From an uncultured Oscillospiraceae bacterium (GTDB taxonomy: Bacteria; Bacillota; Clostridia; Oscillospirales; Oscillospiraceae), in the NCBI GenBank assembly GCA_947627735.1, contig CANQXG010000001.1, positions 144,406 through 207,477 on the forward strand: a stretch of DNA of 63,072 nt, read 5' to 3'. Both the position numbers and the translations under genes were made by a program. Positions 10,897 through 28,860 of the stretch are shown here, piece by piece (the stretch's first letter is position 1; every line of letters starts with the position of its first letter). The notes below the pieces were generated by a model. The model did not search any database and had not been told where the DNA came from. It saw only the letters and a program-made list of their open reading frames with translations.

Positions 10897-13566
<2,670 letters not shown>

Positions 13567-25707: not shown

Positions 25708-25879
25708 GTCGATCCTCCTTGGCATCTCTTTTTCTCCATTATACCATGTCGCGCGGTTGCGGCGCAAGCCGGGAGCGCGACCGGTATCTTTTTGGTATAA
25801 CAGCGCAAAGCGTCTGTTATATCACGCCTCCCTGCTGTTGCAAGCACCCGTGCGCCGCGCCGCTTGCGGCGAAAAGCGC

Positions 25880-25907
25880 TTGACAAACAGCGTGAATCTG
25901 CTATAAT
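25880..25907 (+). promoter_or_regulatory. Consensus sigma-A promoter for tRNA-Leu
   Basis: Perfect TTGACA (25880-25885), 16-bp spacer and perfect TATAAT (25902-25907), 13 bases before the mature tRNA 5' end. Consensus hexamers are normal for stable RNA genes. Confidence 0.9.
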
Positions 25908-25920
25908 TATCTGGCGTCGA

Positions 25921-26007
25921 GCGGGGTTGCTGGAATTGGCAGACAGGCAGGCTTGAGGTGCCTGTGTTCATCAGGACGTGTGGGTTCAAGTCCCATACCC
26001 CGCACCA
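25921..26007 (+). tRNA. tRNA-Leu (anticodon GAG)
   Basis: 87 bases with encoded CCA. The acceptor stem GCGGGGT pairs with ACCCCGC (25997-26003). The anticodon stem CAGGC/GCCTG encloses loop TTGAGGT with GAG at 25955-25957. A long variable arm is present, and GGTTCAAGTCCC gives the T arm. It carries a consensus promoter. The 3' end borders an AT-rich island. Confidence 0.97.
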
Positions 26008-26044
26008 AATCCCGGAGGCCTTGAAAATCAAGGCTTTCGGGATT
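26008..26044. repeat. Hairpin directly after the tRNA
   Basis: Two-part stem: AATCCCG (26008-26014) with CGGGATT (26038-26044), and GCCTTGA (26018-26024) with TCAAGGC (26028-26034). It has no clear T-run. It may act as tRNA terminator or belong to the island end. Confidence 0.6.
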
Positions 26045-26404
26045 ATTGCTAGTGTTTTCAACCGTTTGCGGGTTTTTGCCATTATACAAATAGTTTATTA
26101 AATATATTTCTATGATAACACAAAAACCTTGATTTTACAAAAAATGCGGATGAAATAGCCGGGGGCTTTAGCTTGCCTCCGGCTTGAAAAATTCCTGTAA
26201 TGTTTCTGTGTGCTTTTTTCTGTCAGACTGTGCCAGGCACTTGTAATGCTTCCTCGTAGTCTAATAATCGCTCCATTCGCTGATCTCCACAATGACAGGA
26301 ACATTGCTGCCAATTCACTTGAAGATTTCGACTAATCTGACCCTGTCGTTAACTGAATCATCGACGCGGGCGATGTTATAGCTTCTAGGCTGCAGAGGGT
26401 ATTT
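26045..26404. other. AT-rich non-coding stretch at the left end of the island
   Basis: About 360 bases. It holds the left subterminal inverted repeat at 26054-26073. Short minus-strand open frames exist but lack ribosome sites and recognisable products. Confidence 0.4.
26054..26073. repeat. Left subterminal inverted repeat of the island
   Basis: GTTTTCAACCGTTTGCGGGT is the inverted copy of 28409-28428 with two adjacent mismatches. Confidence 0.55.
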
Positions 26405-26668
26405 CTATATGATTCTCTCAAATACCATTGTGGCCTGGATTCGGTCACCACCGCCCCATCCTGAACTGCTTGCGCTAGATGTGGCAATCGTATGGAGCCG
26501 ATAACCCTTCGCGGCCTGTTCGTTGATAACGGCCTCCAATGCTGTCAAGTTCCCAGAACCAGTCCCAAAAAGTTTCTCCTTCAACGTCACCTGTAGAACA
26601 ACATATTGGAGTTGTTCACCAGAGGCGTATGAGTATGTGGATACATCTGTTTTTCCTCTTAGTGCCAT
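26405..26668 (-). CDS. DUF4177-like small protein
   Basis: 87 residues. An N-terminal beta strand with YVVLQVTLKEKLFG is followed by the helix LEAVINEQAAKGYRLHTIAT and a final strand RIQATMVFERI. This is the beta-alpha-beta pattern of DUF4177, small proteins with no known function. GGAGG lies 10 bases upstream of the ATG. It sits 19 bases downstream of the unknown gene at 26688-27560 on the same strand, so the two are probably co-transcribed. Both have the AT-rich composition of the island. Confidence 0.75.
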   Translation of the reverse strand: MALRGKTDVSTYSYASGEQLQYVVLQVTLKEKLFGTGSGNLTALEAVINEQAAKGYRLHTIATSSASSSGWGGGDRIQATMVFERII

Positions 26669-26687
26669 ATCGCTGATTCCTCCACTT

Positions 26688-27560
26688 CTATGTTATTTTA
26701 TATCCAAGCTCTTTTGCTTTAGCTACGATTGCTTGGTAGTTCTTGGAATTTGTGGTTTTCATATGACGGTAACCCGTCAAACTTTTCGGGCATTTATCAG
26801 ATATGTTCTCTTGCAACCACTTAAAATCAACTTCTTCCTGTGCTCTTACACGCTCAAGCTCAATAAGCGATGGACTTTTGTAAACGGTAGTAACAGGGCA
26901 ATCAATTTCATCATTGAGGGTTGCTTTTACCTGTTGTAAGATTAGACTATTCTCATTATGCACGAATGTAAACCACCATCCAATGCCGGTTTCAATCATC
27001 GGTTTTCTTATTCTTAAATAGATGTTTGCCGTAGCATTTTCAATATATCCAGCAGATGAATATACAATCTGCCCACATACCATGTATGGTTCGGCTGGTT
27101 GCCTTGAAGTATACCAAAGCGTAAGAGGCCGTGCAGACAACTTGCCGCTAAAAGTTTTTGGTGTACACATGAGCCTTGTATAGCCGTAGTTCTTGCTGTA
27201 CTGGTGAAATATTACTGCGTTCACATTCAGGTATATGTCCTTTGGCATTGATGGTATAATGTGTCTATGAGATTCGATTATCTTCTCCAATGTCATTAAA
27301 TGGCTCTTGGCAACCTTGATATTTCTGCCTGTCAAGTTCATGTATGCGAATGCATGAGCGCCCGGTTTGTCATACTTGTACAAATGACAATGCAGATCGT
27401 ATGGCAACTCTGGGAACAAGAGCATATCTTTTGCTGTCATTCGCTGTACCATGATACGCTCTTTTTCCACGTATGAAAGCTTTTCGCTTTCTAACTGCCC
27501 TTTCTTTACGTGAACAGCATCCGAGGACATAGCTTTTCTTATGAGAGCGATAATCCCCAT
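26688..27560 (-). CDS. Island hypothetical protein, unknown function
   Basis: 290 residues, ATG at 27560 with AAAGG upstream. There is no signal peptide or membrane helix. A central beta-rich part (LYKYDKPGAHAFAYMNLTGR onward, including TGIGWWFTFVHNENSLIL) could be a binding domain. The last ~45 residues (DFKWLQENISDKCPKSLTGY and NSKNYQAIVAKAKELGYKI) form a helical tail of a type I have seen at the ends of otherwise unrelated clostridial proteins. Low GC content sets it apart from the chromosome. I cannot assign a function. It shares a transcript with the DUF4177-like gene. Confidence 0.75.
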   Translation of the reverse strand: MGIIALIRKAMSSDAVHVKKGQLESEKLSYVEKERIMVQRMTAKDMLLFPELPYDLHCHLYKYDKPGAHAFAYMNLTGRNIKVAKSHLMTLEKIIESHRHIIPSMPKDIYLNVNAVIFHQYSKNYGYTRLMCTPKTFSGKLSARPLTLWYTSRQPAEPYMVCGQIVYSSAGYIENATANIYLRIRKPMIETGIGWWFTFVHNENSLILQQVKATLNDEIDCPVTTVYKSPSLIELERVRAQEEVDFKWLQENISDKCPKSLTGYRHMKTTNSKNYQAIVAKAKELGYKIT

Positions 27561-27732
27561 AAGGCTACAACCTTTCTTTATCGGTAATAATTACAAATCG
27601 GGCATTAGGAAATCTATATTACATACAGTTACTGTGGCCAATCTGCCCCAGCGTAATATCGACAGAGAGAAAAATGACAGCCGGAGCTTTTTCTACCCTC
27701 TGTGCCTGTGTTGGATCGTCTGCTTGTGCATG

Positions 27733-28035
27733 CTAAAACTGGCTGGGAGCATATCGCACGGTCACGACATGGACCTGTCGCTGGTCTTTCAGCACCTTAT
27801 AGATGATGACATAGTTTTTGACAAATAGCTGACGGTAGCCCTGCCTAGCATAGATACCCGTCTGTCGCACGGACCCGCGTTCCGGCAATTCTTCCAGGCT
27901 GTAAATCGCTTCTTCCAGAGCATCGACCATAGCAGCGGCGGTACCTGGGGCAAGCAGATTATGAGCGATATAGGAGTAGATGCCATCCAAATCGCGGCTG
28001 GCACGGGAATAAAGTTTGACAGTATATTTATCCAA
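27733..28035 (-). CDS. RelE/ParE-type toxin
   Basis: 100 residues with a TTG start at 28035, preceded by GGAGG 7 bases upstream; the start overlaps the antitoxin's last codons by 8 bases. The ParE/RelE fold is recognisable in LYSRASRDLDGIYSYIAHNL, LEEAIYSLEELPERG and YRQLFVKNYVIIYKVLKDQRQVHVVTVRYA. Toxins of this family either cleave mRNA on the ribosome or inhibit gyrase. The pair probably stabilises the island. Confidence 0.9.
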   Translation of the reverse strand: MDKYTVKLYSRASRDLDGIYSYIAHNLLAPGTAAAMVDALEEAIYSLEELPERGSVRQTGIYARQGYRQLFVKNYVIIYKVLKDQRQVHVVTVRYAPSQF

Positions 28036-28291
28036 AGTGTTTCCTCCGCAGAGCAGGAAGTGCAGTTCTGGCGTCCAAGAGAACACTGTCCGCCTCAAAT
28101 TCCTTTTCTGCGTCGCGGATAGCAGCATCGGTCCGTGCGGTCCCGATCAGCTCGTCGTATGCCTCAATGCTCATGACCACCAGATCGCCATAGCCGTTTT
28201 TTGTAATGAACAGCGGCTCCCTGTTCGCATGACAGAGTTCGGAAATCTCGGTGGTGTTTCGCAGGTCGGTGATAGGCCTGATTTGCGGCAT
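28028..28291 (-). CDS. Phd/YefM-type antitoxin
   Basis: 87 residues from ATG 28291 (AAAGGGGG upstream). The N-terminal Phd/YefM DNA-binding domain is PQIRPITDLRNTTEISELCH, followed by EPLFITKNGYGDLVVMSIEAYDEL. The acidic C-terminal helix should wrap the toxin. It lies first in the operon, as usual. A palindrome over its promoter (28311-28339) is the likely autoregulatory operator. Confidence 0.92.
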   Translation of the reverse strand: MPQIRPITDLRNTTEISELCHANREPLFITKNGYGDLVVMSIEAYDELIGTARTDAAIRDAEKEFEADSVLLDARTALPALRRKHFG

Positions 28292-28310
28292 GATTCTAAG
28301 CCCCCTTTCT

Positions 28311-28347
28311 TGCACATAATTATAGCAGAATTATGTGCAAAGCGCAA
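28311..28347 (-). promoter_or_regulatory. Toxin-antitoxin promoter with overlapping palindromic operator
   Basis: Minus-strand -10 TATAAT (28319-28324), 17-bp spacer, -35 TTGCGC (28342-28347). A perfect 11-bp inverted repeat TGCACATAATT / AATTATGTGCA (28311-28321, 28329-28339, 7-base centre) covers the -10. Phd/YefM antitoxins repress their own operon from such sites. Confidence 0.8.
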
Positions 28348-28408
28348 CATAAACATTCAATGGTTCTTAATGCTTTACTCAACAAAGCGAAAATATCGCT
28401 GTGTGTCT

Positions 28409-28428
28409 ACCCGCAAACCATTGAAAAC
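28409..28428. repeat. Right subterminal inverted repeat of the island
   Basis: ACCCGCAAACCATTGAAAAC is the inverted copy of 26054-26073 with two mismatches. It lies 31 bases inside the recurring CCCGCACCA. Confidence 0.55.
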
Positions 28429-28468
28429 AGGGACTTTTTCAAAAAATGCTGTAAGAACACCCGCACCA

Positions 28469-28641
28469 CGTCAGAAGCGTCTTGGAGATTCGAGGCCCTG
28501 GCAAGCCAGGTCCACTCATCGGCCAAGGCGCTTCTTCCTTTTCCCCACGCGGCAGGCGTGCCGCGCGGGGGCCAAGCAGTGTAAAACTCGCTTTGCGACC
28601 ACGATTCCTTTTGCCTGCGGTACAATACACTTTCTCCCCCG
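28469..28641. other. GC-rich stretch with inverted repeats, no gene assigned
   Basis: Between the island edge and an orphan terminator. It contains GCGGCA/TGCCGC-type repeats near 28540-28565. It has no convincing coding frame and does not resemble SRP RNA, tmRNA or RNase P. It may be the end of a gene or RNA lost on island entry. Confidence 0.35.
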
Positions 28642-28681
28642 CCCCGGGGCCTGGTTTAACAGGCCCCCGGGGTCTTTTTTT
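28642..28681 (+). terminator. Strong plus-strand terminator without an upstream gene
   Basis: Long GC stem (CCCCGGGGCCTG, 28642-28653, with 28660-28672; loop GTTTAA) followed by TCTTTTTTT. No plus-strand gene precedes it except the tRNA 2.6 kb upstream. Confidence 0.85.
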
Positions 28682-28758
28682 GTCCGTGTACAGGGCCTTT
28701 TGTTCTATTGGAATTTTCTATATATGCCCTTTGGCGGCCCAAATTCCCCATAAAATCA

Positions 28759-28787
28759 TTGACGCTTTTCATCACATTCTGTATAAT
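28759..28787 (+). promoter_or_regulatory. Sigma-A promoter for the M20D operon
   Basis: -35 TTGACG (28759-28764), 17-bp spacer, perfect -10 TATAAT (28782-28787). It starts a leader of about 67 bases. Confidence 0.85.
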
Positions 28788-28860
28788 GTAACCAATAATT
28801 CCCCGCGTGCGGTCCGTCTTTTTTGCCGGACCCGGTAATAATTTCTTAGGAGGGACCGGA

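Follow-up and report, generated by a model that had tools for sequence, protein, structure and literature searches.

A probable composite, decayed element with att-like ends at tRNA-Leu(GAG) in an uncultured Oscillospiraceae bacterium

Layout and edges of the island

The window analysed here is a 63,072-bp stretch of contig 1 from the genome of an uncultured Oscillospiraceae bacterium (G000; 2.36 Mb in 72 contigs, 86% complete). It carries a small AT-rich island at the 3' end of tRNA-Leu(GAG). ARAGORN placed the tRNA gene, intact to its CCA, at 25921-26007 (+), and the island follows at 26008-28468 (2,461 bp), with a GC content of 44.2% versus 64.7% in the remaining window. No other stretch of this length in the window has a lower GC content (50-bp steps). 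Measured over 200 bp, GC is 0.575 outside and 0.37 inside the left edge, and 0.405 inside and 0.625 outside the right edge. Both the tRNA neighbour and the sharp compositional switch described in an initial annotation of this DNA are confirmed. The island at tRNA-Leu(GAG) is real. It is probably a composite, decayed site-specific element resembling a cis-mobilisable element (CIME), inserted at the 3' end of the tRNA and with its attachment-site-like (att-like) ends kept.

The island encodes an 87-aa DUF4177 protein (26405-26668, -; Pfam E 3e-6, phrog_22683 E 5.3e-43), a 290-aa protein with a phage relative (26688-27560, -) and a type II toxin–antitoxin (TA) pair, consisting of a ParE/RelE-type toxin (27733-28035, -; PF05016 E 7e-14) and a Phd/YefM antitoxin (28028-28315, -; PF02604 E 2.4e-9). 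This confirms the DUF4177 and toxin–antitoxin cargo proposed earlier. Rfam returned nothing at gathering threshold in 25800-28800.

The nine bases CCCGCACCA that close the tRNA (25999-26007) recur at 28460-28468, as first annotated. This 9-mer occurs five times on the plus strand of the window (also at 12002, 47207 and 52089), so the repeat, although present at both edges, is weak and on its own constitutes no evidence. Its frequency would suit a reading without any element, in which AT-rich variable DNA happens to adjoin a tRNA and the 9-mer recurs by chance. That explanation is very improbable, being contradicted by a conserved 78-bp end, by island-free sites and by a scrap of integrase.

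The conserved end comprises the last 78 bp of the island (28391-28468), of which 35 distinct copies were collected from the loci gathered (at least 60 aligned bases; L and G numbers denote loci and genomes). Three copies were omitted from the alignment (L119, interrupted by other DNA, L058 and L150). In the remaining 32, conservation begins with block 1 (AAATATCGCTGTG; 28391-28403, +) and continues through block 2 (CTGCCCGCAAACCCTTGA; 28409-28429, +) to block 3 (CTRTAAGAACACYCGNACCA), which together with the copy of the tRNA end (ATGCTGTAAGAACACCCGCACCA) occupies 28446-28468 (+). The last four bases, ACCA, are invariant, and the sequences diverge afterwards. The right edge near 28468, previously offered as an inference, is thus backed by the conserved end, its invariant last bases and the differing sequence beyond.

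For sites without the island, 29 loci of relatives (L004-L032) were fetched with the tRNA, 26 of which were readable beyond the CCA. Four of these 26 carry CGTC directly after the CCA, as the window does at 28469 (L011 in G021, L014 in G002, L018 in G026 and L019 in G014). A fifth (L026, G009) has the same type of hairpin with one additional G, and the other 21 have different sequences there. The best match to window positions 28460-28570 outside the window is the tRNA-Leu(GAG) site of G026, 87% identical over 90 bp and starting in CCCGCACCA (41 matches, 4 genomes). These island-free sites support the island edges, and the comparison of tRNA-Leu sites suggested at the outset gave such sites in 4 of 26 loci. 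The CGTC-type hairpin lies outside the island (28469-28560, +) and, judged by its sequence, is a repeated terminator-like element. It had 41 matches in the four genomes searched (G000, G021, G026 and G002), with 16 in the window's own genome and 16 in G026, many at tRNA CCA ends and some elsewhere (L264-L293). Among the 30 matches whose context was examined, eight directly follow a tRNA called by ARAGORN, some follow other tRNA-like ends and others neither.

Two ends of apparently different origin

The island opens with a terminator-like hairpin (26008-26044, +), and comparable hairpins stand right behind the CCA of tRNA-Leu(GAG) in L004 and L020-L023. It was initially described as lacking a recombinase, which does not hold: at 26168-26344 (-), 53 residues align to the C-terminus of a tyrosine integrase encoded beside tRNA-Gln in G009 (L208), including a WSDF-like box and the tyrosine position. 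The reading frame is broken by two in-frame stops (TGA at 26315-26317 and TAG at 26261-26263). The Smith-Waterman score of this decayed integrase C-terminus against the L208 integrase is 94, the next best place in the window reaching 46 (mean 25.0, sd 4.8, 2,088 segments). When the integrases of L204 and L207 served as queries, the top place was the same, and in 1,000 shuffles of the scrap peptide the observed score against integrase tails was never reached. Six-frame scoring of 14 complete elements, each with its reversed control, singled out the window (94) and L102 (1053). The other 12 scored 37-64 versus 39-60 for their own controls and bear no clear tyrosine-integrase trace, L097b being borderline (64 versus 47). 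A serine-recombinase fragment is present in at least one of these 12, L043. At the same tRNA in G020 (L034), the first 236 bp behind the tRNA are shared with the window at 74%, together with a short piece of the integrase tail, and this locus did not stand out in six-frame scoring. The unit ATGCGGATGAAA, found once in the window (26144-26155, +) and twice in L034, may be an integrase arm site.

The 290-aa protein also has phage links. Its residues 16-191 are 31% identical to a protein of Blautia phage Montmirail (E 5e-21), whose gene adjoins the phage integrase, and its C-terminal tail matches phrog_4611, a minor head protein (E 3e-5). Relatives were found in its own genome only among 300 family genomes, short C-terminal matches occurred in 6 of 391 class genomes besides its own, and searches of viral contigs and plasmids confirmed none, leaving one phage. 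Single-sequence structure prediction was unusable (mean pLDDT 36). The left end, the integrase scrap and this phage-related gene look like parts of one element.

The right half behaves differently. Loci L101, L108, L110 and L096 carry the TA block (27724/27731 to 28357) at 81-85% identity, and the left part of the window's island is shared by none of them. In L108 the match continues collinearly through the right end to 28468, and in L101 the block stands directly behind the end of another element and a hairpin. As the TA pair recurs elsewhere without the left half, once with the right end, the island looks composite. Sequence comparison supports a right half that would move on its own and a left half derived from a tyrosine-integrase element.

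The two ends nevertheless share block 2. An inverted copy of this 21-nt sequence lies in the left end (GTTTTCAANNGTTTGCGGGT type; 26053-26073, +), 90% complementary to 28409-28429, a score reached by none of 300 shuffles. A similar arrangement was found in L200 (G028:C35), an intact 17.2-kb prophage at tRNA-Leu(CAA) of a genome of the same genus, which encodes a terminase, a portal protein, a CHAP/LysM lysin-like protein and a tyrosine integrase, besides an Abi-like gene and an AAA_21 ATPase. Like the island, it has a left-end hairpin, inverted block-2-like repeats at both ends and an outer hairpin of similar type. It differs in its size, its intact integrase and its 26-bp tRNA repeat. The matched repeats, placed much as in this prophage, would fit a single CIME that a phage-type integrase, able to recognise both of its ends, still mobilises in trans as a unit. 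We consider this unlikely. Block-2-type sites are also present at the ends of elements of other types and elsewhere on the chromosome, and the right end lacks the T-arm copy found at the attR of L204-L207. In addition, the window's own genome, with ten PF00589 matches, contains none that matches the L200 integrase at E <= 1e-10 and could be the cognate helper (86% of the genome being represented).

A strict block-2 pattern retrieved 29 sites in 19 of 35 genomes and none in the reversed control. By reading, 13 are right ends (one truncated), four lie behind the tRNA in a left end and 12 are elsewhere, including five that occupy one conserved intergenic context. Block-2-like sites also mark the ends of several other integrase elements. 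Because these sites occur at so many element types and places, block 2 fails to identify one recombinase; its use as the mark of one phage-integrase family was weakened by the sites at other integrase elements, and that idea survives as the rival above. Separately, TTTCAAGGGTTTGCGGG occurs once per genome in five genomes (L161, L163, L164, L171 and L174), at a conserved intergenic spot that is no element end, before a CACAAGATGTTGT(G) palindrome that we take to resemble an NrdR box.

Several other observations weigh against a composite element with well-defined edges. The CGTC-type hairpin can itself be a left end, as in L098 and L155, where it follows a tRNA and a right end lies further on, and the flanks of the island-free sites are unlike those of the window beyond about 90 bp, with wider synteny lost. 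Since the hairpin is also a repeated sequence, these sites may not be virgin. No trace of an internal att remnant was seen: within the region, CGCACCA is confined to the two edges. Elsewhere in the family of elements described below, the right end agrees with the tRNA over merely 4 nt (L103), 5 nt (L107) or 6 nt (L105), so simple insertion at these three loci is poorly supported. The genomes whose titles are known are metagenome-assembled genomes (MAGs), the window's own being incomplete as stated above. Finally, because block 2 is common to both ends, some probability stays with a single element.

We still favour the composite, decayed element. An element with the 78-bp right end and the Phd/ParE pair would have inserted behind the tRNA CCA, and a second, phage-type tyrosine-integrase element would then have inserted at the same tRNA end, the order of the two events being presumed. 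The second element would have supplied the terminator and the arm-like repeats, along with phage-type cargo and an integrase gene oriented towards the tRNA. A deletion may then have taken most of the integrase and the internal junction, and self-mobility with them. As the island starts after the CCA and carries its own terminator, the tRNA would stay functional, and the TA pair may slow the loss of the locus.

In terms of known classes, the only integration gene of the island is the decayed integrase C-terminus, without the intact integrase expected of an integrative and mobilisable element. No conjugation families were detected in the five island open reading frames (ORFs) scanned, which matched DUF4177, ParE, Phd or nothing above the cut-off. 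No large serine recombinase is present among the island ORFs, such genes being found as fragments in relatives. With regard to a satellite of the phage-inducible chromosomal island type, the island has no intact integrase, phage-interference or packaging genes, and contains only the short minor-head-protein-like tail. Tycheposons are likewise cargo elements at tRNA genes, and differ in having tyrosine recombinases of their own. The review of integrative and mobilisable elements PMC5704250 describes CIMEs as elements that keep att ends and have lost their integration and transfer genes, and it describes accretion and decay at one target. The island resembles these in its ends, which are att-like by sequence, in its lost integration genes and in the lack of detected transfer genes; it departs from that description in being only 2.5 kb long and in having two ends that apparently come from different element types. 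Of the initial proposal of a cis-mobilisable element or a remnant, a tRNA-bounded island that is a remnant or mobilisable in trans would agree with the data, with the amendments that it holds recombinase DNA and looks composite. Mobilisation of the island in trans is possible. If decay alone is at work, tRNA ends would record successive insertions.

A family of elements sharing the right end

The island itself is an element of a known kind. The elements that share its right end form a family for which no description was found among the papers listed in searches of the open-licence PMC literature, mostly at the level of titles and abstract openings. Twelve elements span the distance from a tRNA 3' end to a right end on one contig, with lengths of 747-6,757 bp and six Leu and Pro tRNA species as targets: Leu-GAG (the window and L043), Leu-TAG (L093, L098 and L105), Leu-CAA (L103), Leu-CAG (L107 and L155), Pro-GGG (L097 and L102) and Pro-TGG (L099 and L106). 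A further locus at tRNA-Pro(TGG) with a degraded right end (L150) was not counted, and in L097 another right end follows after 2.3 kb. The stretch of identity between the right end and the element's own tRNA is longer for Pro (11-13 nt, four sites) than for Leu (4-10 nt, eight sites; 9 nt in the window). By eye, several left ends open with a hairpin, which is likely an imported terminator. The same end of an apparent IS3-like insertion (GATAGAAGGTAATC...) stands directly after the tRNA CCA in L093, L099 and L106, and within the right-end core in L119 and L126 (transposase recognised by eye).

The cargo tested includes DUF4160/DUF2442 (L098), Schlafen AlbA_2 (L103), a ParA-like ATPase (L102), an ORF with a weak Mrr-like match (L099) and, in the second unit of L097, dCTP-deaminase/dUTPase-like ORFs. 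PADLOC gave weak or partial matches only, so a defence role for this cargo is a guess. In L095, L100, L110 and L111, the right-end motif has immediately to its left large ORFs of 867-1188 aa that resemble surface proteins on visual inspection, with no tRNA seen in the fetched stretches.

The right end is concentrated in the window's genus. Of its 35 copies, 26 belong to that genus, seven to differently labelled 'Lapin' bins and two to other genera of the family (G276 and G095). Searching with 99 bp of sequence (28370-28468) gave matches in 20 of 35 genus genomes (E <= 0.001) and in 13 of 400 genomes sampled evenly across the family, where several matches were short and partial. A pattern scan of the GTDB species genomes retrieved 24 stretches, all in MAGs named 'Lapin', for which the name suggests rabbit gut as the source; 18 are labelled Oscillospiraceae and the remaining six come from bins labelled Clostridia, Lachnospiraceae, Acetatifactor or Bacteroides. 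The copies in 'Lapin' bins labelled Lachnospiraceae, Acetatifactor and Bacteroides (L122, L126 and L130) may reflect misbinning or transfer. The pattern was absent from viral contigs, and a phage home for the right end was rejected on that count.

We tentatively suggest, while regarding it as doubtful, that these are small elements (0.75-5 kb), for the most part without a recombinase and found mainly in one genus, each combining its own tRNA terminator, a TA or putative defence module and the shared 78-bp right end. They would insert at no fewer than six tRNA species with the help of one recombinase acting in trans, as a cassette system docking at tRNA ends. If they are moved in trans, single TA and possibly defence cassettes would spread among gut Oscillospiraceae without a carried recombinase. 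The shared right end offers a sequence handle for finding copies of the family, and the same TA block was met at other loci and in other species. The Dehalococcoides ssrA islands, according to PMC3146451, use one target gene and a 20-bp repeat, and sixteen of them have an integration module with serine recombinases. The present family differs from that account in its six tRNA species, its 4-13-nt match and the lack of an intact recombinase in most of the elements examined.

Candidate recombinases for the right end

The right end shows no conserved single-strand fold (the 32-copy alignment gave 5 pairs at -0.56 kcal/mol, none changed on both sides), which points to recognition by a protein binding duplex DNA. 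An integron-like attC site, and with it an integron cassette, was ruled out on the same ground. IS200/IS605-like transposition, suggested by the hairpins behind the tRNA, was dropped on the reasoning that the left hairpins differ between elements. Use by the Xer/dif system was also considered, since CCTATAA looks similar to dif sites. The candidates are a large serine recombinase and a tyrosine integrase.

That a large serine recombinase of the DUF4368 class moved the family, originally in cis and now in trans, is a possibility we take seriously without thinking it likely. An element end would then be half of a palindromic attP, so that few bases at the tRNA end need match, in keeping with the observed 4-13 nt, and the lack of a conserved fold fits as well. 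Three genomes (G008, G011 and G034) carry the block 3-related CGAGTGTTCTTACAGCATTT as a perfect inverted copy of 20 nt, placed 3 nt behind the CCA of tRNA-Leu(GAG), and in all three, pieces similar to one serine recombinase are encoded just inside the left end. A Pfam check of two loci found DUF4368 in both L043 and L199, accompanied in L043 by Recombinase and zinc-ribbon domains, and in L043 both inverted halves bound one element. However, all the serine recombinases found are fragments, and the resolvase catalytic domain was not hit in L043. Among 12 elements compared, a clear inverted match between left and right ends is restricted to L043 and the window, with L102 weak (reached by 5 of 300 shuffles). 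The inverted match of the window also involves block 2 rather than block 3, and its own remnant is that of a tyrosine integrase.

It is rather improbable that an L102-type tyrosine integrase moves the right-end family, the small elements being its non-autonomous offspring. L102, at a tRNA-Pro of G001, has the sole intact tyrosine integrase among the 14 complete elements scored (381 aa, PF00589 E 1.5e-21). Beside it, the block 1 segment TATCGCYGTR occurs as two inverted copies, and of 48 integrase loci (L204-L251) only L216, from the same place as L102, has such sites. Against this, a 55%-identical relative (L217) lacks TATCGCYGTR sites and has a longer tRNA-like end with a T-arm beside its integrase, and L102 could itself be composite. 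L102 had been considered the likely autonomous relative of the family, and this idea was weakened by the related integrase loci without block-1-type sites.

Other integrases and element ends were noted along the way. In the window's own genome, an intact tyrosine integrase ORF of 409 aa adjoins tRNA-Thr(GGT) (L188, G000:C2:30000-39000) and probably marks another integrated element. G021 encodes five integrase-like ORFs of 278-281 aa at separate places (L193-L197), four with near-identical N-termini and with no tRNA in the fetched stretches. A second kind of right end (AAGTCCCTTATGGGGACTCGTACCA type) lies ahead of tRNA-like ends in L101 (around 2345), L014 and L018, and other element families may use the same tRNAs.

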